This document shows, piece after piece, positions 5,587 through 35,679 of a DNA stretch of 64,000 nucleotides. Source of the stretch: Synechococcus sp. PCC 7336 (GTDB lineage: Bacteria; Cyanobacteriota; Cyanobacteriia; Thermostichales; PCC-7336); contig NZ_CM001776.1 of NCBI RefSeq assembly GCF_000332275.1, positions 3,842,008 through 3,906,007 on the forward strand. The letters are read 5' to 3'. A program made the translations under genes and the position numbers. The notes under the pieces are model-generated. The model made no database searches. It was not told where the DNA came from and was given only the letters and a program-made list of their open reading frames with translations. Numbering within the stretch: position 1 is the first letter of the stretch; each line of letters begins with the position of its first letter.

Positions 5587-8514
5587 ATGAACTTTACAAC
5601 TAGTTTCCCGTCTCAAGTTATTGGGCAGGCTGGTTTCATTCCTGTTCCATTGGTAACTATTGGTGAAATTATCCCTGGCACAACCGGTGCATTAAACAGC
5701 TCTACTGCTGGTGACTACCAACCTGTCGGTATTTTAGATGGTGTTGGTGCTATTCGTTTTGATGATAATACTGTACGGGCTTTTACCAACCACGAATTGC
5801 TAGATTTTGAGGGAGTCGAGTACACCATTACTCAAGGTACGGCCGACACTAGTGATGACTTTACACTGGTCGGTGGTCGTATCTCCTACTTCGACATCAA
5901 CATCGAAGACCTTGGGATTGAAGATGCAGGGATCGCCTACAACACAATCATCGATGCTAATGGTGATGTGGCTACTGAGAACACCGCTGAGAATCCCATC
6001 TTCGATCCGATCTTTGCAGAGCCCGGTAACCCTGATGGCGGTACTCGACTGGTTGAAGGCTTTGCTCGTTTCTGCTCTGGGGGTTTGAGTGAGGCCGAGC
6101 AGTTTGGCTCCGGTCGCGGTTTGGCAGACGATGTCTACTTTGCTGGTGAAGAAGTTGGCGGCTTCTTCAATAACGTGGGTGGTGCCAACTGGGCTTTAGA
6201 TGTTGCAACTGGAGAGATTTACCAGCTTCCTTTCTTGGCTCGGGGCTCCTGGGAAAACACCTCCGAAATTGATACAGGTACAACCACTCACGTTGCTTTC
6301 ATTCTGGCTGATGACCAGTCTCCCTTTGACTTCGATGGCGATGGTGAAACCGAAAGTCCTCCGTATTACCTCTATGTCGGTGAGAAGAATCCTGATTCTG
6401 ATGACTTCCTGGAGCAGAACGGTCTGACCGGTGGCGATCTCTACGTTTGGGTGCCTGATGCTAACCTCGATGAAGATGACAGCAATGATATTGTCAATGC
6501 ACTCCAGTTTCGCAATGCAGGTACCACCGCATCGGGTGCCTGGGTAAAAATTGACAACGATAACCTCGATGCAGACGGCAACATTAATCCTCTATCTCAG
6601 GATTTAGAGGGTGCCCTGAATGATTTTGACCAGTTTGGTTTCCCTACCCAGGGTAACTTGTTTGCTCAAGCCGAAGCAGTTGGTGCTTTCCAACTCTCTC
6701 GCCCTGAGGATCTTGCAACTAATCCCAATAATCCTACTGAGATTGTTCAGGCCGTAACTGGTGTCGATAACTTTGCGATCGATCCTGAAACTGGTGATGG
6801 TGCAGATACCTTCGGTGCCTTGTATACTCTTGACACCGATTTTTCTGGCTTCGACTTCACCACAGGCACGGGTTCCATCACTGCCGTTCATACTGTAATC
6901 TACGATGGCGATGAAGATCCCAACCGTAGCCTCCGTAGCCCTGACAACCTAGATTGGGGTGATGATGGCTTCATCTACGTTCAAGAAGATGAAGCAGAAG
7001 AAGATACCCTGGCAACCGGTGAAGTTCTGTTTGGTCAGGGTGCCGTTAATCCTAACGAAGCCAGTATCGTTCGAGTCGAGCCCAATGCTGCTCCTGAGGT
7101 GGCCGCTGTCGGTGGTAATGTCGAGGCCATTGCGATCGTCGATCGCAGCCAAATCCTCGATCCCTCCGTTCCCGACCCCACCACAGCTGTGGACGAGGAC
7201 TTCGAGTTCGGTCCTGACGACGGCATCCCCAGTGACAACGACTTTGTTGTCGTCGATCCCAATGGCAACACGATTGTTCTGAATGCAGGCGAGTGGGAAA
7301 CCTCCGGGATTGTGGACGTTTCCAGCTTGTTTGACGAAGTGGCTGGCTCGATCTTCCTGTTCGACGTCCAAGCCCACGGTCTAGCCGACCAAGATGATGT
7401 CAACCTCGAACAAGGCGATCTCTCTGCCCTCACGGATGACAACCTGTCTGAAGGGGGGCAGTTGTCCCTGCTCATTAACACCAACTTAATTCAAGTGGGC
7501 ACCAGCGGGGATGACATCCTGCGAGGAACCGCCGATGGCGATTCCATTCGCGGCTTAGCTGGCGACGACATTATTAAGGGCCGAGGCGGCGATGACAAAC
7601 TCTTTGGAGCTGACGGCGACGACTTCCTCAAAGGTGACTCGGGCAACGATACCCTCTGGGGCGGTGCTGGCGATGACGATCTCAAAGCTGGCCAAGGCGA
7701 TGACGACCTCCAAGGGGGAGGTGGCAATGACGACCTCTTCGGTCGCGCTGGCGATGACACCCTGGTTGGCGGTGAGGGAGATGATGACCTCTTCGGTGGC
7801 GGCGGTGCCGACACCCTCGAAGGGGGCAGCGGCAGCGACGACCTCAGAGGGGGCGGTGGTGCTGACACTCTGTATGGGGGCGAAGGGGATGACGATCTCA
7901 TCGGTGGCGGCGGCGCCGACTTCATTGCTGGGGGCAGCGGTAGCGACGATCTCTTCGGTAACGGCGGTGCTGACACCCTCATGGGGGGCGGTGGCTCCGA
8001 TCGCCTGAATGGCGGCGGCGGCAACGATACGGCTGATTTCAGCGACATTCCCGTTGGAGTCACGGTAGATCTGGCTGCTGGCACTGCCTTTTACGAGCCT
8101 GCACCCGATGTACTGATTACGGATACTTTGAGAAGTATTGAAAATCTCACGGGCACTGTCTTCAATGACAATCTCGCGGGCGATGCTCGTGCCAATATCC
8201 TCAACGGAGTTGGCGGGGCCGATGCCTTAACGGGCGGTGCTGGCGGAGATACCTTTGTCTTAGGCGACGAGTCAGGGGCGTTCTACGCTGAGGCTGGGAC
8301 TGCTGATGTGGCCGAACTGACAGATTTTGCGACGGGTGAAGATCGCATTCAGCTCTCGGGCAGTCTGAGCGATTACGCCTTCTTTAGCTTGGGTAGCGGT
8401 CCTGCCACGGCTATTGCGCTCGATGATGGCAATGGCAGCTTTGACTTCCTGGGCGACGAACTCGTTGCCTTTGTGGGCAATGGATTTGAGCTGACTGACT
8501 TGGCTTTTGTCTGA
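5587..8514 (+). CDS. PhoX-like (DUF839) protein with C-terminal RTX repeats
   Basis: A 975-residue secreted protein. Residues 1-620 resemble the PhoX/DUF839 phosphatase propeller: AFTNHELLDFEG near 61, RFCSGGLSE near 160, YFAGEEV near 185, YYLYVGEKNPDSDD near 260 and LRSPDNLDWGDDGFIY near 445. PhoX enzymes are Ca/Fe alkaline phosphatases that release phosphate from organic esters. Residues about 639-815 are RTX nonapeptides (GGxGxDxLx) that bind calcium and mark type I secretion; about 160 more residues follow, ending in VAFVGNGFELTDLAFV. There is no N-terminal signal peptide, which agrees with type I rather than Tat export. A strong terminator follows. Phosphatase activity is inferred; the RTX tail is clear. 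No type I transporter gene is adjacent in an obvious operon. Confidence 0.7.
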   Translation: MNFTTSFPSQVIGQAGFIPVPLVTIGEIIPGTTGALNSSTAGDYQPVGILDGVGAIRFDDNTVRAFTNHELLDFEGVEYTITQGTADTSDDFTLVGGRISYFDINIEDLGIEDAGIAYNTIIDANGDVATENTAENPIFDPIFAEPGNPDGGTRLVEGFARFCSGGLSEAEQFGSGRGLADDVYFAGEEVGGFFNNVGGANWALDVATGEIYQLPFLARGSWENTSEIDTGTTTHVAFILADDQSPFDFDGDGETESPPYYLYVGEKNPDSDDFLEQNGLTGGDLYVWVPDANLDEDDSNDIVNALQFRNAGTTASGAWVKIDNDNLDADGNINPLSQDLEGALNDFDQFGFPTQGNLFAQAEAVGAFQLSRPEDLATNPNNPTEIVQAVTGVDNFAIDPETGDGADTFGALYTLDTDFSGFDFTTGTGSITAVHTVIYDGDEDPNRSLRSPDNLDWGDDGFIYVQEDEAEEDTLATGEVLFGQGAVNPNEASIVRVEPNAAPEVAAVGGNVEAIAIVDRSQILDPSVPDPTTAVDEDFEFGPDDGIPSDNDFVVVDPNGNTIVLNAGEWETSGIVDVSSLFDEVAGSIFLFDVQAHGLADQDDVNLEQGDLSALTDDNLSEGGQLSLLINTNLIQVGTSGDDILRGTADGDSIRGLAGDDIIKGRGGDDKLFGADGDDFLKGDSGNDTLWGGAGDDDLKAGQGDDDLQGGGGNDDLFGRAGDDTLVGGEGDDDLFGGGGADTLEGGSGSDDLRGGGGADTLYGGEGDDDLIGGGGADFIAGGSGSDDLFGNGGADTLMGGGGSDRLNGGGGNDTADFSDIPVGVTVDLAAGTAFYEPAPDVLITDTLRSIENLTGTVFNDNLAGDARANILNGVGGADALTGGAGGDTFVLGDESGAFYAEAGTADVAELTDFATGEDRIQLSGSLSDYAFFSLGSGPATAIALDDGNGSFDFLGDELVAFVGNGFELTDLAFV
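7501..8031 (+). repeat. RTX nonapeptide-coding repeat block
   Basis: About nineteen imperfect 27-bp units encode GG-x-G-x-D-x-L-type nonapeptides. The block is very GC-rich, and the opposite strand has a long proline/serine-rich frame that is only a by-product of the repeats. Confidence 0.9.
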
Positions 8515-9056: not shown

Positions 9057-9188
9057 AGGTTGCGTTCCAAACAGGTCATCCATTCAGACTGTCGCAATCT
9101 GAAACGGGTTCAATCCTACCTATGGGAACGCCCCAAACAGAAGCCGTTCTTGCACAATGGGGAAACAGCTACCATCTCTGCCGCCTTG

Positions 9189-10973
9189 ATGAACGCAACC
9201 TCGCCCGCTCGCCGTCCCGCTCTACGACGGTTACTCGCTTACGCCCATCGCTACCGATCGCAAGTGCGGCTGGCTTCCACCTGCTCGGTCCTCAATAAAA
9301 TCTTCGATCTGGCCCCGCCCGTCCTCATCGGTGCCGCCATTAACGTTGTGGTGGAGCGAGAAGATTCCTTCATTGCTGGCTGGGGCATTACCTCTGTTTT
9401 CCAGCAATTATTGTTGCTGTCGTTGGTCACCCTTATCGTCTGGGGCTTGGAATCTGCGTTTGAATATGCCTATGCTCGCCTGTGGCGCAATCTCGCCCAA
9501 CACATCCAACACGACCTGCGGCTAGACGCCTATGCCCACCTGCAAAAGCTGGAGATGGCGTTTTTCGAGCAGCGCAGTACGGGGGGCTTGATGGCCATCT
9601 TGAACGATGACATCAATCAGCTAGAGCGGTTTTTGAATGGGGAAGCCAACGAGGTGATTCAAGTGGTTACCACCGTCATTGTGGTGGGGATTGCCTTTTT
9701 CATTGCCACGCCATCGGTGGCTTGGATGGCCATGTTGCCCATGCCGTTCATTCTGTGGGGATCGCTCATCTTTCAGCGCAAACTGGCTCCGCTGTATGCA
9801 GATGTGCGGGAGAAGGTCAGTGTGCTGAGTGCTCGGCTGGCCAATAATTTGGGCGGCATGATGACGATCAAAAGTTTTACCGCCGAAGCCTACGAGCTCG
9901 ATCGCCTCCGCAGTGAAAGTGATGCCTATCGCACCAGCAACCGCAGGGCGATCGCCGTGAGTGCCGCCTTCGTCCCCCTCATCCGCATTGTCATTTTGGT
10001 CGGCTTTACCGCCACATTGCTAGGTGGAGGGCTGCAGGCAGCTAGCGGCAGATTGGATGTGGGGGTCTACAGCACGCTGGTCTTTATCACCCAACGCCTG
10101 CTTTGGCCTCTGACTCGCCTGGGCCAAACGTTAGACGAGTATCGTCGAGCGGTGGCTTCCACGACGCGAGTGCTCGATCTACTCGATACCCCCATTGCCA
10201 TTCACGCGGGTCGCCAACCGCTCCCCACGGCAGATGTACGCGGAGAAGTGCAGTTAGAAAAGCTGACCTTTGCCTATCGCGATCGCGCCCCTGTTTTAGA
10301 GAATCTCTCCCTCCACATTCCCGCCGGACAAACCATTGCAATAGTCGGTCCCACAGGCTCGGGTAAAAGTACCCTCGTCAAGTTGCTATTGCGGCTGTAC
10401 GAAATCGACAGCGGCCGTATTACGTTAGACGGCACCGACCTGCGCCAACTCAACCTCAAAGACTTGCGCCGAGCAATTGGGCTGGTGAGCCAAGACGTAT
10501 TTCTCTTTCACGGCACGGTCGCTGAAAACATTCGCTACGGCAGTTTTGATGCCACTTTGGCGGAGGTTGTCGCTGCTGCTCAACTGGCTGAAGCCCACGA
10601 GTTTGTCGAGCAGTTGCCACAGGGTTACGACACAATTGTGGGGGAGCGGGGCCAAAAGCTTTCCGGCGGTCAGCGGCAGCGATTGGCGATCGCCCGCGCC
10701 ATTCTCAAAGATCCACCTATTCTTATCCTGGATGAGGCCACTTCGGCGGTGGATAACGAAACGGAGGCGGCGATTCAGCGATCGCTGGATAAAATCTCTC
10801 GGGGACGGACGGTGATTGCGATCGCCCACCGCCTATCTACCATCCGCAAGGCCGATTGCATTTACCTCATGCATAAAGGCCAGCTCGTCGAGCAGGGCCG
10901 CCACGAAGAACTGGTCGATCGAGGGGGCATGTATGCCAGTCTTTGGCACGTTCAGCTCGGTCTGGAGAGTTAA
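9189..10973 (+). CDS. ABC exporter, fused permease and ATPase
   Basis: About 594 residues from the ATG at 9189. The frame is open 43 codons further, but that extension is non-hydrophobic and overlaps the neighbouring promoter region. The N-terminal 320 residues form a six-helix ABC type 1 membrane domain. The C-terminal nucleotide-binding domain shows Walker A GPTGSGKST, Q-loop GLVSQDVFLF, signature LSGGQRQRLAIARAIL, Walker B ILILDEATS and the H-loop IAIAHRLST. This is the MsbA/MdlB-like half-transporter architecture, working as a dimer to export lipids, peptides or drugs. The substrate cannot be told from sequence. No partner half-transporter or accessory gene is adjacent. Confidence 0.88.
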   Translation: MNATSPARRPALRRLLAYAHRYRSQVRLASTCSVLNKIFDLAPPVLIGAAINVVVEREDSFIAGWGITSVFQQLLLLSLVTLIVWGLESAFEYAYARLWRNLAQHIQHDLRLDAYAHLQKLEMAFFEQRSTGGLMAILNDDINQLERFLNGEANEVIQVVTTVIVVGIAFFIATPSVAWMAMLPMPFILWGSLIFQRKLAPLYADVREKVSVLSARLANNLGGMMTIKSFTAEAYELDRLRSESDAYRTSNRRAIAVSAAFVPLIRIVILVGFTATLLGGGLQAASGRLDVGVYSTLVFITQRLLWPLTRLGQTLDEYRRAVASTTRVLDLLDTPIAIHAGRQPLPTADVRGEVQLEKLTFAYRDRAPVLENLSLHIPAGQTIAIVGPTGSGKSTLVKLLLRLYEIDSGRITLDGTDLRQLNLKDLRRAIGLVSQDVFLFHGTVAENIRYGSFDATLAEVVAAAQLAEAHEFVEQLPQGYDTIVGERGQKLSGGQRQRLAIARAILKDPPILILDEATSAVDNETEAAIQRSLDKISRGRTVIAIAHRLSTIRKADCIYLMHKGQLVEQGRHEELVDRGGMYASLWHVQLGLES

Positions 10974-22622: not shown

Positions 22623-24188
22623 ATGACTCAATATATTTTGATGACTATGAAGTTCAAATGCCAGAATGCTTTTAACCTTCTAAGTAAATTTTTTATTACT
22701 CTATTTCTGTTCTTATTTGTAGATGTTTACTTGCTGCCGAAAGGTTTAGCTAATTCATTCTGTGAAGATGGGGAAGAATCTATTGAATCTCTTGTGCAAG
22801 AGACAGAAAAATTATTGGATATAAATCAGCAGTTTCAGGCTTTATTCACTATAACCAAAGCTGGATCTCGAGTGATTGATACATACGTTGGATGTCGGGA
22901 TTTACTAGATCGCCTTTACAAGCTAACTGTTTTATCGGCATCTGATTTAAGAGAATATAATCGCTTGAGAGTTAATGATCCACTTTTTTTAGAGCTAAGT
23001 CCCGATGGTAACCTATTGGCGTCATACGGTTTTCATCGCATACAACTTTGGAATCTTGATGGCTCTATAGCTGCAGCCTGGGATCGTCAAGAACTACCAG
23101 GTGTTATTACAGACTTGAGCTTTAGTCCTGACTCTGGCTTGATTGTTGTTGGTGGGAGAAGTCAGGTATCTCTGATCGATATCAACAACCTAATGATTAA
23201 GAGTTTTGAAAGTTCTGCAGATATTGTCGATCGAGTTCTATTTAGTTCTGATGGAAGGTCGATAGTTGGACTTAACAATAAAACTATTAGATCTGGCTTA
23301 CAAGGAGGATATGTTGAGAGATGGTTAGTTGAGAATGGTCATTTATTAGATAGGTTTGTTGCTGGGTCTGAGTATGAGGTTTTAAATGTATATTTAAGTT
23401 CATCTATCTTTTATGTCGCTGTTCTTCGATACTACCAAGATCGCCTTAGTATTGAGCTGATTAATTTAAATAATAACCAAATTACTGAGCTTAAAGATCT
23501 AGAGAATTTTCAGGATTTCGGTGTTCATAGATTTGAATTTAGCCCAGACTTAAATTATATTGTATTGACCAGTGAATCAGGTTTTATTGAATTACGTACA
23601 ATTTTAGGTGACCTAATAGGTCTATTAGATGGCTTTATTCGCCAAGGTCGATATTTAGAACGTCATCAACTTCTGCATCTAGAGTTTAGTCCAGATAGTC
23701 AGCTACTAGCAACTTTGAATTTTGACAGGCAGCTAAAAGTCTGGAATGTTGACTCTACAGCTCGAGCTGATATACAACTGATTGATAGGCAAATAGCTGA
23801 GGAAACATGGACTCATGGTTCTATTGGGGCTATGGAATTTAGCCCTGACTCTCAACTAATAGTCTATGGCGATCCTAATGGTTTAATCCGAATTTGGACT
23901 ATTAGTGGCTCACCTTTGCTGCAATTAGATGGTCATCAATCTAACGTATTAGATTTACAATTTAGCCCTGATGGGCAAACCCTCTTTTCAATTGATTCTA
24001 ATGGCAATGTGATTTTTTGGAACCCCTACAGTCCTTTACTAGAAACGGCTTCAGATATCATTGATGTTCCTGTAATTAGCTATGAAGAGTTGCTTGGACT
24101 CAGTTGCAATTGGTTGCAAGACTATCTTGCATCGAATCCAGATCTGAGTGAAGAGGATCGCCGAATGTGTGATTGGCAAAACCCATGA
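22623..24188 (+). CDS. Exported WD40 protein, array member 1
   Basis: A 521-residue protein. An N-terminal hydrophobic segment (about residues 20-40) looks like a signal peptide, but no lipobox Cys is seen, unlike its two paralogs. A helical linker follows (SLVQETEKLLDINQQFQAL and ITKAG), then about eight WD40-like blades with FSPD motifs and W-N or W-T endings. The conserved tail is LLGLSCNWLQDYLASNPDLSEEDRRMCDW. The linker and tail resemble the parts flanking the WD40 propeller in cyanobacterial STAND/WD40 proteins, but the NTPase is absent. It begins 55 bases after the giant gene in the same direction. Its stop overlaps the next ATG as ATGA. AT-rich codon use sets it apart from recG and sbcC. 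Confidence 0.8.
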   Translation: MTQYILMTMKFKCQNAFNLLSKFFITLFLFLFVDVYLLPKGLANSFCEDGEESIESLVQETEKLLDINQQFQALFTITKAGSRVIDTYVGCRDLLDRLYKLTVLSASDLREYNRLRVNDPLFLELSPDGNLLASYGFHRIQLWNLDGSIAAAWDRQELPGVITDLSFSPDSGLIVVGGRSQVSLIDINNLMIKSFESSADIVDRVLFSSDGRSIVGLNNKTIRSGLQGGYVERWLVENGHLLDRFVAGSEYEVLNVYLSSSIFYVAVLRYYQDRLSIELINLNNNQITELKDLENFQDFGVHRFEFSPDLNYIVLTSESGFIELRTILGDLIGLLDGFIRQGRYLERHQLLHLEFSPDSQLLATLNFDRQLKVWNVDSTARADIQLIDRQIAEETWTHGSIGAMEFSPDSQLIVYGDPNGLIRIWTISGSPLLQLDGHQSNVLDLQFSPDGQTLFSIDSNGNVIFWNPYSPLLETASDIIDVPVISYEELLGLSCNWLQDYLASNPDLSEEDRRMCDWQNP

Positions 24189-25741
24189 AAAATAAAACCC
24201 ACTATTCACTCCTCACAGTAGGCCGAAGCATTTTCGCTTTGGGGGCGATCGCCCTAATAAGCTGCACTTTGACGTCAGCAAGTTCTGGAAACACCTCTTG
24301 TGAAGTTAGGGCACAATCTATTGAGCCGCTCTTAGAGGAGACAGAACGGTTGTTAGAAGAGAATCAGCAGTTTCAGGCACTAGTTAGTATTACGAAAGCT
24401 GGGAGTATCCTGATTGGCGATCGCACTGAATGTGAAGAGTTAGGCGATCGTGTATACGATTTAACTATAAAGTCAGCATCTAACTTGAGAGAATATAATC
24501 AGCTGAACACTGACTCTCACTGGATCTTAGAGCTTAGTCCAAATGGAAATTTTCTGGCTTCTTACAATGATTCTAGTATACAACTTTGGCAAACCAATGG
24601 CTCATTATTTTCTAGTTTAACTCGCCACGATTTACTTGAAGATATTGCCGATCTAGAATTTAGTCCTGATTCTCATTCAATAGCAATCGGTAGCAGAAAT
24701 CAGATACTTCTTTACCATCTTAATGAATTAAGAATTGAGAGATTTAAAAGTCCTGCAGATTTTTTTTATAACGTTTTATTTGCTCCCGATGGACAATCAA
24801 TCGCTGGTCTCAGTACTCAATCAAATCTACCTTTTGGATTGCCAGGAGGAGTAGTTGAAATATGGCAGATTAATGATGGCTACGTATCCGATCAATTTAT
24901 GGGTGGAATTGTTTATAATATTCTACATGGACATTTTACATCGTCGAGTTTTATCGTTGCTGTTTATAGTTCCTATCCCGATCGAACTGCAATAGAGTTA
25001 ATCGAGTTAGATGGCACTACTCTTACAACTCTTTCAGATATAGAGCCTTTAACTCCTAATGTGACAAATATAGTATTAGGAGTTAAAGAATTTCGGATTA
25101 GTCCAGATTCAAAGTTTATTGCTACTGGAAACGACGGAGGACTTATTCAGTTGTGGACATTTACAGGCGTACCAATTGCAATCCTCGAACGTCATATCCC
25201 AAGTAATCCATATCGAACTCGGCATCAAGTTCTAAAGCTAGAGTTTAGTCCAGATAGCCAACTACTGGCTGCAATTACTTTCGATAGGCATCTTATAATA
25301 TGGAAAGTCGATGGTTCTCGGTTGGCTGAGATCTCACTTTTAGATGAGGAGATAGATGTAAATAAATACGGTTTTTCACATGCGATGGAATTTAGTCCTG
25401 ATGGACAAACAATTGCCATTGGCGATCGAGAAGGTTCAATCCGCCTTTGGAATATAGATGGCACACCTATACTGCATCTCGATGGCCATCAATCTAGTGT
25501 ATCGGATTTACAATTTAGCCCTGACGGACAAACTCTTGCCTCAATTGATTTCAACGGCAATGTTATTTTTTGGAAACCTAATACCCCTTTACTTATACCT
25601 ACTCCAGATATCATTGAAGTGCTTTCTATAGCTTCCGAAGATCTACTTGGGCTTAGCTGCAATTGGTTGAAAGACTATCTTGCATCGAGCCCAGATCTGA
25701 ATGAAGGCGATCGCCAAATGTGTGATTGGCAAAACCCATGA
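24185..25741 (+). CDS. WD40 lipoprotein, array member 2
   Basis: A 518-residue paralog of the preceding gene. I choose the ATG at 24185, which overlaps the previous stop as ATGA; a TTG 12 bases earlier is possible. The signal peptide ends in a lipobox-like LISC, so it should be a lipid-anchored periplasmic or outer-membrane protein. The linker SIEPLLEETERLLEENQQF, about eight WD40 blades (LEFSPDSHSIAIGS, MEFSPDGQTIAIGDREGSI and others) and the tail LLGLSCNWLKDYLASSPDL match the other members. WD40 propellers bind protein partners; none is known here. Translational coupling suggests equal amounts of the three proteins. Confidence 0.82.
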   Translation: MKNKTHYSLLTVGRSIFALGAIALISCTLTSASSGNTSCEVRAQSIEPLLEETERLLEENQQFQALVSITKAGSILIGDRTECEELGDRVYDLTIKSASNLREYNQLNTDSHWILELSPNGNFLASYNDSSIQLWQTNGSLFSSLTRHDLLEDIADLEFSPDSHSIAIGSRNQILLYHLNELRIERFKSPADFFYNVLFAPDGQSIAGLSTQSNLPFGLPGGVVEIWQINDGYVSDQFMGGIVYNILHGHFTSSSFIVAVYSSYPDRTAIELIELDGTTLTTLSDIEPLTPNVTNIVLGVKEFRISPDSKFIATGNDGGLIQLWTFTGVPIAILERHIPSNPYRTRHQVLKLEFSPDSQLLAAITFDRHLIIWKVDGSRLAEISLLDEEIDVNKYGFSHAMEFSPDGQTIAIGDREGSIRLWNIDGTPILHLDGHQSSVSDLQFSPDGQTLASIDFNGNVIFWKPNTPLLIPTPDIIEVLSIASEDLLGLSCNWLKDYLASSPDLNEGDRQMCDWQNP

Positions 25742-27279
25742 AAAATAAAACCCACTATTCACTCCTCACAGTAGGCCGAAGCATTTTCGTTTTGGGTGCA
25801 ATCGCCCTAACAAGCTGCACTTTGACGTCAGCAAGCTCTGGAAACACTTCTTGTGGAGCTAGGGCACAATCTATTGAGCCGCTCTTAGAGGAGACAGAAC
25901 GGTTGTTAGAAGAGAATCAGCAGTTTCAGGCACTAGTTAGTATTACAAGAGCTGGGAGCATGCTGATAGACATTCATTCTGAATGTGAGAGTTTAGTAGA
26001 ACGCCTATATGAGCTAACCATAAAGTCAGCATATAACTTAAGAGGATATAACCTCTTGAGAACTCGCGATCGCCTTTTTTTGGAGTTGAGTCCAAATGGC
26101 AATCTCTTAGCTTCATACAGCTTTACTGGGATACAACTTTGGCAAACTGATGGCTTATTAGCTGCCACTTGGAATCTTCAGGAGTTATCAAGTAATATTT
26201 CCGATCTAAGCTTTAGTCCTGACTCAAGTTTAATCGCTGTTGGTGGTAGAAGCCGGGCATCTCTTATCGATATCAATGAATCAAAGATTGAAAATTTTGA
26301 AAGTGTTGCAGAGGTTGTTGATGAAATATTCTTTAGTCCAGATGGACAATCTGTTGTTGGTTTCAACAATCAGACTCTCATGCCTGGTTTACAGGGGGGA
26401 CATGTCGAAATATGGAAAATAGAAGATGGCTATTTGTCAGATCGGTTTGTAGGAGGTGCTGACTACAAGGTTTTAAGCGGGCATTTTACTTTATCGGAGC
26501 TCGTTATTGCTGTTGCTAGGTATCATCCAGATCGGATTGGAATAGAACTGATCGATATTGACAACAATCATCTTATAAATCTTACGGATATAGAACATTT
26601 TCAAGATTTAGGAGTTAATAGATTTGTATTTAGTCCAAATTCGAATTTTATTGCCGTTGGTAGTGATGCAGGAATAATTGATTTACGAACATTTACAGGC
26701 CAATCAATCGCTATACTAGAAAACTACATACCGAGTAATCCATATTTAATTCGTCATCCACTTCTACACCTAAAGTTTAGCCCGGATAGCCAACTACTGG
26801 CAGCAGTTACTTTTGGTAGACTTCTTAAAGTATGGAGAGTTGATGCTTCACAGCTGGCTAATATATCGCTTATTGATGAGGAGGAATATGAAGGGAATTG
26901 GGCTGATGGTTTTATAGGGACTATGGAATTTAGTCCCGATGGGCAAACAATTTTTTTTGGCGATCCAAATGGTTCAATTCGACTTTGGACTGTAGATGGT
27001 ATACCTTTACTCAATTTAGATGGCCATCAATCTAGTGTGTTAGATTTGCAATTTAGTTCTGACGCACAAACACTTTTTTCGCTTGATTACAAAGGCAATA
27101 TCATCTTTTGGAAGCCCTACGATCCTTTGCTAATAAATGCTTCAGATGTCATTGACATCCCAGAAATGACTTACGATGAATTACTCGGGCTCAGTTGTAA
27201 TTGGCTGCAAGACTATCTTGCATCGAGCCCAGACCTGAGTGAAGGCGATCGCCGAATGTGTGATTGGCAAAACCCATGA
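25738..27279 (+). CDS. WD40 lipoprotein, array member 3
   Basis: A 513-residue protein starting at the ATGA overlap with member 2. Its first 20 residues are nearly identical to member 2, including the lipobox LTSC, and the first 200 bases are almost the same in DNA, which points to recent duplication or conversion. Blade sequences diverge more; some match member 1 better (LIAVGGRSRASLIDIN, MPGLQGGHVEIW), so the array is mosaic. The tail LLGLSCNWLQDYLASSPDLSEGDRRMCDW is intact. The stop again overlaps an ATG, that of a dead fourth copy. Confidence 0.82.
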   Translation: MKNKTHYSLLTVGRSIFVLGAIALTSCTLTSASSGNTSCGARAQSIEPLLEETERLLEENQQFQALVSITRAGSMLIDIHSECESLVERLYELTIKSAYNLRGYNLLRTRDRLFLELSPNGNLLASYSFTGIQLWQTDGLLAATWNLQELSSNISDLSFSPDSSLIAVGGRSRASLIDINESKIENFESVAEVVDEIFFSPDGQSVVGFNNQTLMPGLQGGHVEIWKIEDGYLSDRFVGGADYKVLSGHFTLSELVIAVARYHPDRIGIELIDIDNNHLINLTDIEHFQDLGVNRFVFSPNSNFIAVGSDAGIIDLRTFTGQSIAILENYIPSNPYLIRHPLLHLKFSPDSQLLAAVTFGRLLKVWRVDASQLANISLIDEEEYEGNWADGFIGTMEFSPDGQTIFFGDPNGSIRLWTVDGIPLLNLDGHQSSVLDLQFSSDAQTLFSLDYKGNIIFWKPYDPLLINASDVIDIPEMTYDELLGLSCNWLQDYLASSPDLSEGDRRMCDWQNP

Positions 27280-27501
27280 AAAATAAAACCCACTATTCAC
27301 TCCTCACAGTAGGCCGAAGCATTTTCGCTTTGGGGGCGATCTCTTACCCCTCGATCGGGCTTTAGACGCAGTCGAGAATTTTTCTATTTTGTTGACGAGT
27401 TACTTGCCCTTGGTTACGTTTGGATGAAGGATTACTTGGCAACAAACCCTAACTTAGAAGACAGGGATCGCCAATTGTGTGATGCTTTTACCACCCTCTA
27501 G
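27276..27501 (+). pseudogene. Fourth WD40 copy, internally deleted
   Basis: The ATG overlaps the stop of member 3. The first 22 codons repeat the lipoprotein signal peptide (MKNKTHYSLLTVGRSIFALG), then the frame ends at TAG 27363. From about 27347 the DNA encodes, with one frame change near 27390, a decayed version of the family tail: DELLALGYVWMKDYL, then NPNLEDRDRQLCD, ending at TAG 27499. The whole propeller is missing. This is a deletion derivative joining the start of one copy to the end of another. Confidence 0.85.
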
Positions 27502-27502
27502 A

Positions 27503-27616
27503 ACTATACTGATAGCTGTGCATCCTGAATGTGAAGAATTAGGCGATCGCATATACAATCTAATTGTAAAAGCAGCATCTAGCTTAAAAGAATACAATCG
27601 ATATGACTATAAGTAG
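27503..27616 (+). pseudogene. Fifth WD40 copy, linker fragment only
   Basis: Immediately after the previous remnant, a frame encodes TILIAVHPECEELGDRIYNL and KAASSLKEYNRYD before TAG at 27614. It matches the linker of member 2 (ILIGDRTECEELGDRVYDL, KSASNLREYNQL). No signal peptide and no propeller remain. Confidence 0.8.
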
Positions 27617-27642
27617 AATGCAAGTCAATCGGCAGGTTAGGT

Positions 27643-28362
27643 ATGAGCAATTCGTCTCCAATTATTCAGGTTGCTGTCAATGCTCCTGGCTGGGGGCATT
27701 GGACGCGAATTCTAGCATTAGTCATTCACCTTCCCCAGATTCATTTTAAGGTTTACCACACCTTAAGCCATGTCCCTTTGCCAAAGTGGATTAATAATGT
27801 TGAGGTGGTCTCTCAACTACAACCCCATCAACCGATTGTTTGCGAACATGGCTGGGAATCCGCCCGCCCTTATGGACCAAATGACTTTAGCCATAGCCTC
27901 TGTATTCGTAAAATTAGCCGTCGACGACCTGATTTAGCAGGATACGATCGCCTCATCACCGTTTCAGATGTCGATGAAGCGGGAGATTTCCCACCCGTTG
28001 TGTTAGAAACTAAGGCTTCGGAACGCAGCTATGACAGTAATGTCATTGTCAGTAGTGAGAAGAAAAATCATCAATTCTTACGTGAAAAATATCCTGCCTA
28101 CTCCCACCAAGTTATTTATCCCATTACTGTCATGCGCAATAGTATAAAACATTTGATCGGCATTGCTGGATATAATCTATTTTGGGAGTGTGCCTACTAT
28201 CAGATTCCCTGTAAGCTCTATCCTTCAACATGGCTGAATGACTCCCATAGGCGCTTGGCACGTTTGGGAAAGAGAGCGCTCCCTGCCCCATTTATCAATG
28301 GTGCGCCTAGTGTCGCTCGAACAATGTTGGAATGGTGGACTGAAGTAGCTAAACACGTATGA
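27643..28362 (+). CDS. Short GT-B glycosyltransferase-like protein
   Basis: A 239-residue cytoplasmic protein. The N-terminus VAVNAPGWGHWTRILAL resembles the nucleotide-sugar glycosyltransferase start (glycine-rich loop after strand 1). Near residue 175 the stretch HLIGIAGYNLFWECAYYQIPCKLYP resembles the donor-site region of GT-B enzymes such as MurG. It is much shorter than usual (350-400 residues), so it may be a reduced or decaying enzyme. TTAGGT precedes the ATG. It is the last gene before the right direct repeat. The family assignment is tentative. Confidence 0.5.
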   Translation: MSNSSPIIQVAVNAPGWGHWTRILALVIHLPQIHFKVYHTLSHVPLPKWINNVEVVSQLQPHQPIVCEHGWESARPYGPNDFSHSLCIRKISRRRPDLAGYDRLITVSDVDEAGDFPPVVLETKASERSYDSNVIVSSEKKNHQFLREKYPAYSHQVIYPITVMRNSIKHLIGIAGYNLFWECAYYQIPCKLYPSTWLNDSHRRLARLGKRALPAPFINGAPSVARTMLEWWTEVAKHV

Positions 28363-31680: not shown

Positions 31681-31767
31681 ACTTGTGGTTGTTTGTGGTT
31701 CGGGTCGGTTAGTCTCGTCAAATTTGGGTGAATTCGGCAGAATGAGACGGTGTATGGTGATGCGACG

Positions 31768-32565
31768 ATGTCTGCCTATCTGGTTAACGAACTCAAAGGA
31801 TTAGTCGCCGATCGCAAGGTGGTTGTCATTGTTGGGGCTGGGGTGTCGATCGCCGCTACTGGCAATCATCCGGTGGCGTCTTGGATGGGTTTGCTCGAAC
31901 ATGGCGTGCGCCAGTGCCAGAAGTTGGGTCGGGCGCAACGGGCTTGGGTGCAAAGAAAGCTGGCGGCGTTGAACGATCGCGATTGCGAGCTGTCAGAAAT
32001 CTTGGCGATCGCTAGCGAGCTTGAAGCCAGATTGAATGCGTCTGGGGGAGAGTTTCGGCGGTGGCTGCGGGAGACGGTAGGGGAGTTGTCGGCGATCGAG
32101 CGGGGGGCGATCGAAGCCTTGCAGGATTTGGGGGCGGTGATTGCAACGACCAATTATGACGGGTTGCTGGAAGAGGTGACGGGCTTGCGACCGGTGACTT
32201 GGTTGGAGACTGCGCGGGTGGAGCGGGTGCTGCGGGGAGACGAACAAGGAATTTTGCACTTGCACGGCTATTGGGAACAGCCGGAATCTGTTGTGTTGGG
32301 GATTCGGTCTTATGAGGATGTGCGGCGGAGCGAGCACGCACAGACGATGCAAATGGAGATTTGGCTGCGTTTTTGGGCGGTCTTGCACCCTCTGCGATTG
32401 AGGTGGGGGATCTGCAAGCTCAGCAAGAGAGAGAGCAGCAGCGACAGCGGGAAACAGGGATTCCGTCGAATTTGCCCTATAGCGGCGTGGCGCAGTTTGT
32501 GGGGCGGGAGCGGGTATTGGTGCAGTTGCACGAGATGTTGCAGCGGGGCGATCGCGTTGCGGTGA
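31768..32565 (+). pseudogene. SIR2-domain part of a broken SIR2/NB-ARC/TPR gene
   Basis: From the ATG at 31768 the frame encodes an N-terminal SIR2-like domain: VVVIVGAGVSIAATG (NAD-binding glycine loop), AVIATTNYDGLLEE near residue 127, LHLHGYWEQPESVVLG near 170 and SYEDVRRSE near 190. Sequence after about base 32356 in this frame is out-of-frame noise. In intact relatives the SIR2 effector, an NADase in several antiphage systems, is joined to a STAND NTPase and a repeat sensor. The rest of the SIR2 domain is deleted, and the next module continues in another frame. A GTG at 31750 is an alternative start. Confidence 0.8.
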
Positions 32566-32900
32566 CGGCGATCGCGGGGATGGGGGGGATTGGCAAGACG
32601 GAGTTGGCGCTGCAATATGCTCGGCGGTATTTGGAGGGGTATCGGGGTGGGGTCTGTTGGCTGGCGGTGCGGGGGGCTGAGTTGGATACTCAGTTAGAGA
32701 GTTTTATGCGCACTCACTTCAACCGTTCGCAGGGTCGCTACGAGCAAGCGGAACCGCTGTACCGGCAGGCGCTGGAGTTGAGGCGCGAACTGTTGGGAGA
32801 GAAGCATCCCGATGTCGCCACCAGCCTCACAATTTGGCAGAACTCTATCGGCTACAGAACCGTTATGAGCAAGCAGAGCCACTCTTTTTGCAAGCCCTAG
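32361..32900 (+). pseudogene. NB-ARC NTPase start and first TPR of the broken gene
   Basis: Second frame of the same ruined gene. It has the linker NLPYSGVAQFVGRERVLVQL, typical of cyanobacterial NB-ARC proteins, and Walker A AIAGMGGIGKTELALQYA, then GGVCWLAVRG. The remainder of the NTPase (Walker B, sensor motifs, winged helix) is missing: after LESFMRTHF the frame jumps into a TPR unit RSQGRYEQAEPLYRQALELR, a deletion of several hundred residues. Near 32829-32832 the text CTCACAAT stands where the TPR consensus L-N-N needs CTCAACAAT, a one-base loss that shifts the frame. Confidence 0.8.
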
Positions 32901-33250
32901 AGCTGGGACTAGCTTCTTTGGGCAAGAAACATCTATCCATTGCATTCGATTGGGCTAGGCTGGCACAGCTTTATCGACAGCAGAAAAAATACGCTAAAGC
33001 TGAGACGTTCGCCCTCAAAGCATTAACCCTACGCGAGCAAACATTGGGGCCAGAGCACCCAGAAGTCGGCATCAGCCTCAAAATTGTGGCCGAAGTTTGC
33101 GAAGCTCGCGGGCAATCTGCAGAAGCCCTCTCCTATTACCGCCGCGCCCTCCCCATCCTAGAAACCACAATCCCCCTCCGCCCCGAAACCCAAACAGTCC
33201 GAGCCGCCCTAGAGCGCCTGCACCACAATCCCCCCCACCCAACTCAATAG
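32834..33250 (+). pseudogene. TPR tail of the broken SIR2/NB-ARC/TPR gene
   Basis: Third frame of the same gene, reached by the one-base deletion near 32830. It encodes about three TPR units of the kinesin-light-chain type (LAELYRLQNRYEQAEPLFLQAL, LAQLYRQQKKYAKAETFALKAL, VAEVCEARGQSAEALSYYRRAL) with the spacer HPEVGISLK, then a Pro-rich end. In intact STAND proteins this part senses the trigger. Whether the fragment is translated is unknown. Confidence 0.75.
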
Positions 33251-33893: not shown

Positions 33894-34082
33894 CTATGAT
33901 GACTCCCGTTCAGCCTCCTGCTTGAGGCGATCGCAAAGCTGCTTGAGACCCTGGATAATGTGTTGAATGGCAAGGCGATAAGACCGATCGGCTTCTTCCA
34001 CCTCCATTGCCGTTGCCAAAGTCCAGGCGATCGCGGTGAGTTGTTCCAGTTCTTGCAGTAATTGATTATTGGGCTCAGTCAC
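33894..34082 (-). CDS. Small helical protein, copy A
   Basis: The GTG at 34082 is preceded by AAGGGAG nine bases away, a strong ribosome site that decides this start over the longer open frame reaching 34304. The 62-residue product (VTEPNNQLLQELEQLTAIA, then AMEVEEADRSYRLAIQHI) is predicted helical, with a short own tail AERESS. All but the last few codons are duplicated exactly in copy B. Family not recognised. The length and AxxxA-like helix suggest a small dimeric or accessory protein; no role can be assigned. Confidence 0.55.
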   Translation of the reverse strand: MTEPNNQLLQELEQLTAIAWTLATAMEVEEADRSYRLAIQHIIQGLKQLCDRLKQEAERESS

Positions 34083-34279
34083 GGTGCGCTTCTCCCTTGT
34101 TAGTAGAACGGTCACCACCTGTTGGGGAGGTGACCGGGAGTTAAGAAACCGCACACAAGCACGGCCACGGCACTTTTTAGCCGGAGCCTGGACATTTAGT
34201 ACCGTCTCCCGGTCATAAAACCGAAAGACGGCATGATTTGCGGCCCATGCCAGCCGCTTGTGTGAGGGGTTCTTAAGCC
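33915..34279. repeat. 365-bp direct repeat, copy A
   Basis: Identical to 35315-35679 at every base compared, spaced exactly 1400 bases apart. It spans most of the small helical-protein gene and about 200 bases of its structured upstream region. Confidence 0.95.
34095..34231 (-). promoter_or_regulatory. Structured leader upstream of the small helical-protein gene
   Basis: On the minus strand the leader can form three stems: CCGTCT/AGACGG with an inner CGGT/ACCG (34202-34231); ACCGGGAG (34206-34213) with CTCCCGGT (34133-34140), which overlaps and competes with the first; and CGGTCACC/GGTGACCG (34109-34136) just before the ribosome site AAGGGAG. Mutually exclusive stems are a feature of switching leaders, but I recognise no riboswitch class. 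The same leader is in copy B (35495-35631). Confidence 0.35.
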
Positions 34280-34304
34280 CCAGGATGGCGGATATGTATG
34301 CCAT

Positions 34305-34820: not shown

Positions 34821-35301
34821 GGTTGTCATACTGGCTCTCATCGTTACCCTACAATCTTGCTATTTGTTATCTGATGATAGAAGTAGCATTTTGCCTGAAA
34901 AGATAGAAGTATCAGATGTTTATCGGAACAAAATAAGCTCTGGAATTAGTGAGGGTTGTGGTGCTGTCATATTTACATTAACCGAAGAAATATTAGAGGA
35001 AATCAATAACCAAGGATTGATATTCTTTAATGATGCAACAAGAGCTAGAGGGAGTACCAGAAGTAATAGTCGATACTATTTATATCAAAGATGGCAAGGA
35101 ACGCCTTTGAAACAAAGTGCAAATAATACAAATTTTTGGGCTGGGATGAGTTGCGCTAAGAACTTGGGTTTAGAGGAATCTTTGTATGAAGAAATAGTTT
35201 TAGCAATGCGTACGACAGGATCCTATTATACTGGCCATTATGAAGGGCAGTTAGTGGTCATACCCAGGCTGGGTCTCGTGGTTTTTTCTTATGCGGGGTA
35301 A
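34810..35301 (+). CDS. Putative lipoprotein of unknown function
   Basis: A 163-residue protein. The N-terminus MKLKVVILALIVTLQSCYLL is a lipoprotein signal peptide with Cys17 after LQS. The mature part has two more Cys (GISEGCGAVIF, WAGMSCAKNLGL) that could pair, and a hydrophobic end LVVIPRLGLVVFSYAG. It is strongly AT-rich compared with nearby genes. It lies between two perfect 365-bp repeats and its 3' end overlaps convergently with copy B of the small gene, so it looks like inserted cargo. Family unknown. Confidence 0.6.
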   Translation: MKLKVVILALIVTLQSCYLLSDDRSSILPEKIEVSDVYRNKISSGISEGCGAVIFTLTEEILEEINNQGLIFFNDATRARGSTRSNSRYYLYQRWQGTPLKQSANNTNFWAGMSCAKNLGLEESLYEEIVLAMRTTGSYYTGHYEGQLVVIPRLGLVVFSYAG

Positions 35302-35482
35302 GTGTAAAAGCCTTCTCCTGCTTGAGGCGATCGCAAAGCTGCTTGAGACCCTGGATAATGTGTTGAATGGCAAGGCGATAAGACCGATCGGCTTCTTCCA
35401 CCTCCATTGCCGTTGCCAAAGTCCAGGCGATCGCGGTGAGTTGTTCCAGTTCTTGCAGTAATTGATTATTGGGCTCAGTCAC
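35258..35482 (-). CDS. Small helical protein, copy B with altered tail
   Basis: Starts at the same GTG with the same AAGGGAG site as copy A and is identical for 57 codons. It then leaves the repeat and gains a different tail, KAFTLTPHKKKPRDPAWV, read from the antisense of the lipoprotein gene end. Total 74 residues. The tail is an accident of the insertion, so copy A more probably keeps, or the two copies share imperfectly, the original function. Confidence 0.4.
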   Translation of the reverse strand: MTEPNNQLLQELEQLTAIAWTLATAMEVEEADRSYRLAIQHIIQGLKQLCDRLKQEKAFTLTPHKKKPRDPAWV

Positions 35483-35679
35483 GGTGCGCTTCTCCCTTGT
35501 TAGTAGAACGGTCACCACCTGTTGGGGAGGTGACCGGGAGTTAAGAAACCGCACACAAGCACGGCCACGGCACTTTTTAGCCGGAGCCTGGACATTTAGT
35601 ACCGTCTCCCGGTCATAAAACCGAAAGACGGCATGATTTGCGGCCCATGCCAGCCGCTTGTGTGAGGGGTTCTTAAGCC
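35315..35679. repeat. 365-bp direct repeat, copy B
   Basis: Exact partner of 33915-34279 in the same orientation. Outside these limits the sequences differ at once (C versus T at both edges). Confidence 0.95.

Follow-up and report, generated by a model that had tools for sequence, protein, structure and literature searches.

When a WD40 propeller is joined to a bacterial STAND or TIR domain, it is generally treated as the sensor or scaffold of an immunity that operates inside the cell. A topology with the WD40 part outside has been proposed in a review, from helix prediction, for six caspase-WD40 proteins (orthocaspases; PMC7475262), and the passages found in three papers on WRAP and STAND propellers (PMC9218822, PMC6805158, PMC8195603) leave topology undiscussed; among the proteins covered in the passages of the first of these is Npun_R6612, a WRAP-bearing STAND-WD40 protein of cyanobacteria. 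What is new here is the extension of the outward-facing topology, as a prediction from a cysteine and charge test, to nSTAND1, AAA_35 and TIR receptors and to forms in which the propeller is detached from the signalling half.

Three coupled WD40 genes and remnants of further copies

The locus considered is an array of three WD40 genes of Synechococcus sp. PCC 7336, located in a stretch of 64,000 nt that was analysed as a whole (the window; Table 1). A preliminary description of this DNA had noted the three genes and the overlap of stop and start codons as ATGA at both junctions, which we confirmed together with the coordinates. The three proteins share one layout: behind a hydrophobic N-terminal segment for export come a helical linker, the WD40 propeller, and a tail with the motif SCNWL.DYLAS.PDL...DR.MCDWQNP. 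Pfam recognized the propeller in each (1.6e-23, 1.2e-26, and 5.6e-22 for genes 1, 2, and 3, respectively) and detected only WD40-type families, in agreement with the described absence of an NTPase; nor does an NTPase gene adjoin the array. The proteins start at the hydrophobic segment, with no cytoplasmic output domain in the same chain. PADLOC gave only a weak match, driven by the WD40 repeats.

Table 1. Features of the WD40 array and its immediate surroundings (positions are those of the window).
Feature	Position	Strand	Remarks
Ig-like giant, 2610 aa	14735..22567	+	Big_13, Big_5, LVIVD; 55 bases upstream of gene 1
WD40 gene 1	22623..24188	+	521 aa; export signal/anchor, linker, propeller, tail
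ATGA overlap, genes 1/2	24185..24188	+	seen in sequence
WD40 gene 2	24185..25741	+	518 aa; lipobox signal (C27), linker, propeller, tail
Gene 2 linker	24293..24508	+	homologous to post-helix linker of STAND/TIR receptors
Gene 2 C-terminal tail	25613..25738	+	contains conserved cysteine pair
ATGA overlap, genes 2/3	25738..25741	+	seen in sequence
WD40 gene 3	25738..27279	+	513 aa; lipobox signal (C27), linker, propeller, tail
Remnant: start and signal of fourth head, with ATGA	27276..27341	+	66/66 bases identical to head 2; frame broken
Remnant: tail of further, more divergent copy (LALGYVWMKDYLATNPNLEDRDRQLCD)	about 27397..27483	+	40 bits against tail profile
Remnant: post-linker piece (HPECEELGDRIYNLIVKAASSLKEYNRYDYK)	about 27506..27617	+	out of frame

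Lipobox signals, also part of the preliminary description, are indeed present on the second and third proteins, whose signal reads MKNKTHYSLLTVGRSIF[A/V]LGAIAL[I/T]S-C27 and ends in a regular lipobox (LISC27 in gene 2, LTSC27 in gene 3). Both combine an n-region, an h-region, and a lipobox of the form [LVI][ASTVI][GAS]C near the N terminus, and their lipidation is predicted from the lipobox. Gene 1 has no lipobox; its signal is an unrelated hydrophobic segment (about aa 1-43; KD 1.91 for the hydrophobic stretch) that ends in GLA-NS and is of the non-lipid type. Cysteines occur at positions 13, 47, 91, 495, and 516 in gene 1, at 27, 39, 83, 492, and 513 in gene 2, and at 27, 39, 83, 487, and 508 in gene 3. 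Genes 2 and 3 thus possess the lipid-type C27 and two invariant cysteine pairs (39/83 and the tail pair) with no odd free cysteine, a set of five that would suit an oxidising compartment and the formation of disulfides.

In an AlphaFold model of the gene 2 protein (pLDDT 67.8 overall, mostly 80-94 in the blade core, low in the tail), the linker forms helices at residues 38-58, 62-76, and 84-105, followed by some 33 strands and two tail helices. A fold search with this model gave the best coverage to WD40 proteins such as Rsa4 and Notchless (TMq about 0.5), which we take to be eight-bladed. The WD40 repeats of the array thus fit a closed beta-propeller, with eight-bladed matches the best in coverage.

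Behind gene 3 lies a region of debris (27276-27617), overlooked in the preliminary description, in which the pieces of former copies are out of order and out of frame (Table 1), and from which at least two further array copies probably once existed. A third ATGA, at 27276, heads such a dead copy. The DNA of the junction block (tail, signal, and first linker helix) is about 90-97% identical in genes 2 and 3 and that of the propellers 60-80%, a pattern that recombination or conversion at the junctions would produce. Given this nearly identical block and the ATGA on a dead copy, the overlap is better regarded as a single junction that was copied than as three that were selected, and, having been copied with the duplication unit, it says little about the fixed ratio of products that the preliminary description had drawn from it.

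The array has a GC content of 37-40% and a GC3 of 0.28-0.31 (0.64-0.67 in the neighbouring recG, sbcC-like, and ABC genes), which with the debris would allow it to be recently acquired and decaying. On this basis, a serious rival explanation is that the three genes are themselves debris of a receptor cluster once acquired, encoding outer halves that are exported and have no role. At least two further copies are dead, the array is AT-rich against its neighbours, orthologs were not found in 390 genomes of the class, and a comparable standalone gene is broken in two other genomes (G029 and G397, discussed below). However, three intact ORFs of more than 510 codons persist at 50-63% pairwise protein identity, the cysteine pairs and tail are invariant, and the overall dN/dS between copies is 0.23-0.37 (synonymous sites being near saturation in the comparisons with gene 1), suggesting that the three surviving genes are maintained by selection; we therefore regard decay as unlikely. 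Neither promoter nor terminator signals above shuffles were noted between 22300 and 27800, and the RNA structure upstream of gene 1 was unremarkable.

The gene preceding the array encodes an Ig-like giant with no signal peptide seen, and further upstream are an ABC exporter (9060-10973) and an RTX-repeat PhoX-like protein (5587-8514), a combination that suggests type I secretion of the giant. It also displays a HxxxxxxD...HRDHIHI motif, not detected by Pfam, that resembles M15-type peptidases. A few kb or less downstream of both the giant and its 2199 aa paralog in the same genome (L258:7238-13834) lies a gene that starts ..NAPGWGHWTRI.. (27643-28362 in the window; L258:15487-16260), with WD40 genes in between at the window copy only. 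Since the giant is probably surface-exposed and lies on the same strand as gene 1, with no terminator-like site in the 55 bases between them, the lipoproteins could constitute an envelope scaffold that anchors the giant or helps to display it, their receptor ancestry being incidental. This is improbable to about the same degree as decay, given that the retrieved stretches around the paralog and around homologs in four genomes (G140, G123, G078, and G177) contain no array-like gene and neither linker nor tail, and that the GC3 of the giant (0.49) differs from that of the array. A constant association of such a giant with these WD40 genes, a point that the preliminary description had put up for checking, is contradicted by the same loci.

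Two further observations were made downstream. At 31750-33250 on the forward strand, a SIR2_2 domain, an NTPase-like stretch (GMGGIGKTELALQYA), and TPR-like repeats follow one another in successive overlapping frames, an arrangement reminiscent of a SIR2-STAND-TPR defence gene with a broken frame in the vicinity of the array. A segment (RFLNSRSPPQQVVTVLLTREKRTVTEPNNQLLQELEQLTAIAWTLATAMEVEEADRSYRLAIQHIIQGLKQLCDRLKQE) is repeated almost unchanged in two reverse-strand ORFs (33894-34304 and 35258-35554).

The linker and tail across cyanobacteria

The preliminary description had assigned the linker and tail to cyanobacterial STAND proteins, and searches with separate profiles bore this out. With E 0.01 as the cutoff, the tail profile, built from the three array tails, had matches in 102 of the 194 genomes of the class, for the most part where ORFs of 900-2000 codons end, and the linker profile, though weaker, retrieved the same protein class; the two match long receptor ORFs almost exclusively. 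Linker and tail were thus found with STAND domains and not only in ordinary secreted WD40 proteins. The N-halves of 87 tail-bearing proteins matched nSTAND1 (30), TIR_2 (28), and AAA_35 (27) and, in a few cases, CHAT, SpoIIE, or cyclase domains, and all 20 N-halves shown individually were nSTAND1, caspase-nSTAND1, AAA_35, or TIR. The proposed STAND ancestry therefore holds as far as the shared linker and tail are concerned, but the family is wider than STAND, the same outer half being carried on TIR and, in a few cases, on CHAT, SpoIIE, or cyclase domains.

The receptors have a common order of output domain, one membrane helix, linker, WD40 propeller, and tail. The helix directly precedes the linker with similar spacing, and the array signal peptides align on it. 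The array proteins have the tail signature C-x-W-L-x-D-Y-L ... D-R-x-x-C and the helical linker found in the receptors between membrane helix and propeller. When the array linker (A3), a profile of three sequences on which the homology of the linker rests, was compared with 71 receptor post-helix segments picked by hydropathy to limit circularity, it scored 34.6 over 63 columns (E 3.7e-6), against at most 13.2 for controls consisting of pre-helix segments, the reversed profile, and 60 column-shuffled profiles. The array tail (A2) matched 72 receptor tails at E 2.3e-20, a value that is partly circular since these tails were chosen by the tail profile. The nearest linkers to that of the array belong to AAA_35-helix-WD40 proteins, and the genome itself encodes two full receptors, an nSTAND1 (1205 aa) and an AAA_35 protein (1162 aa, L028), both with a helix.

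These comparisons bear on the possibility that the array encodes ordinary secreted WD40 proteins, akin to TolB or other periplasmic propellers, which resemble receptors by convergence. WD40 propellers are widespread, and the Pfam families detected in the array are of the WD40 type only. The tail and linker E-values against receptor segments and the low scores of the linker controls speak against it, as does the fact that nearly all tail carriers are receptors and standalone exported ones are rare. Convergence with TolB-type propellers was rejected on the profile tests, and we consider an origin of this kind very improbable.

A tblastn search of plasmids with the tail found only five cyanobacterial records, the two inspected (H41 and H42) containing receptor genes or the WD40-bearing part of one, and the same search with the linker gave no match. 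Some short tail-bearing ORFs (L121 and L129) were rejected as standalone proteins, being frame-broken receptors. No ortholog of the array was found in the 390 genomes of the class, nor in two contig scans with the array as the query, for which the peptide patterns were too specific, so no conserved context supports a function.

Orientation of the receptor propeller

We took a census of cysteines, excluding the tail pair, in 73 receptors of 47 genomes in which the helix was clear, and compared them with 14 helix-less, tail-bearing relatives (helices were called by hydropathy only). The WD40 halves of the helix-bearing receptors contained 38 cysteines in 50,371 residues, where 524 were expected from their own N-halves (0.75 vs 10.4 per 1000), and 55 of the 73 had none in the WD40 half outside the tail. 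In contrast, the WD40 halves of the helix-less relatives had 10.6 per 1000, similar to their own N-halves and with no depletion; the difference between the two groups was significant (P 8e-9, and <=7.5e-7 with one protein drawn per genome). Lysine and arginine residues preceding the helix outnumbered those following it in 63 of 73 receptors, with the reverse in two. Cysteine depletion and positive-inside charges both suggest that the receptor output lies in the cytoplasm and the propeller outside it, and, on this indirect evidence, the parental propellers appear to have been outside the cytoplasm already. A tail disulfide was dropped as proof of export, as 13 of the 14 helix-less proteins keep the tail cysteine pair, such that the pair alone proves nothing of the kind.

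The preliminary description had placed the array propellers outside the cytoplasm, as STAND sensor halves re-tooled into lipoproteins. The location agrees with the export signals of the array and with the probable position of its parents, but a move out of the cytoplasm is improbable, since the parental propellers already follow the helix, are depleted in cysteine, and lie on the outer side by the positive-inside rule. The same outer half is seen in three proteins (L161, L159, and L165) with the order TIR, membrane helix, WD40 and no NTPase, whose TIR domains are apparently governed by an outward-facing propeller.

These findings suggest an extracytoplasmic sensing role for receptors of this kind, with a sensor that can become separated from the rest and be exported. 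An outward-facing propeller in the helix-bearing cyanobacterial group would change the ligand to be expected, from intracellular products to the envelope, the surface, or parts of an arriving phage. Detached and exported propellers would also offer a small soluble handle on the sensor, which, purified and free of ATPase or lethal output, could be used to fish for the ligand.

Origin of the array and comparison with known systems

We propose that the array consists of the outer halves of receptors that lost the inner half and in which the membrane helix became an export signal, a reading to which, for origin and export jointly, we assign a probability of roughly 65%. The linker-propeller-tail unit would be the extracytoplasmic sensor of single-pass cyanobacterial receptors with an nSTAND1, AAA_35, caspase-nSTAND1, or TIR domain as the cytoplasmic half. 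Loss of that half and conversion of the helix into a signal (a lipoprotein signal in genes 2 and 3) would probably have left the propeller on its original side, lipid-held or free in the envelope. There, the putatively eight-bladed propeller would most likely bind a protein or other ligand and serve as an accessory or competing ligand binder, possibly towards the two full receptors of the genome, although such action in trans is tentative and in our estimation rather doubtful.

A parallel was noted in one other genus. In G183, the propeller of a 939 aa nSTAND1 protein has almost vanished, and after its gene comes a second one, for a 445 aa helix-linker-WD40-tail protein; G029 and G397, of the same genus, have damaged standalone copies beside a receptor-type propeller gene. 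We regard the split nSTAND1/WD40 pair of G183 as an independent parallel to the array. The split pair (L122:6479-7813; L123) adjoins chlorophyll-binding (isiA-like) and flavodoxin-like genes in two genomes of the one genus, and in L123 the standalone WD40 gene is interrupted by a transposase-like insert. Soluble immune receptors are used by animals, and in a comparable way cyanobacteria could employ ectodomains of their own STAND/TIR receptors, soluble or lipid-anchored and encoded separately from the signalling half, as envelope co-receptors or decoys, the array and the G183 pair being two cases; this generalization is more speculative still than action of the array proteins in trans.

Known systems close to the array include the AAA_35 (PF14516)-helix-WD40 receptors (for example L155 and the 1162 aa protein of the array's own genome), with which it shares the linker, the propeller, the cysteine-bearing tail, and a hydrophobic segment in the same position before the linker. 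It differs in being without the AAA_35 half, in having the hydrophobic segment at the N terminus as a signal, and in the extra cysteine pair 39/83. The outer half is likewise common to the nSTAND1 (PF20703)- and caspase-nSTAND1-helix-WD40 proteins, but the array lacks their NTPase and caspase. Its blades are also more divergent (self-lag identity 0.09-0.13 vs a receptor median of 0.35) and not recently amplified. The propeller protein of the G183 pair resembles those of the array in being a standalone, N-terminally anchored linker-WD40-tail protein without an NTPase; unlike the array, its gene lies directly beside its STAND gene, it has a helix or plain signal with no lipobox, and its blades are more alike (0.44). 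Finally, the caspase-helix-WD40 orthocaspases (PMC7475262), with the effector inside and the propeller outside, have the topology argued here for the parental receptors.
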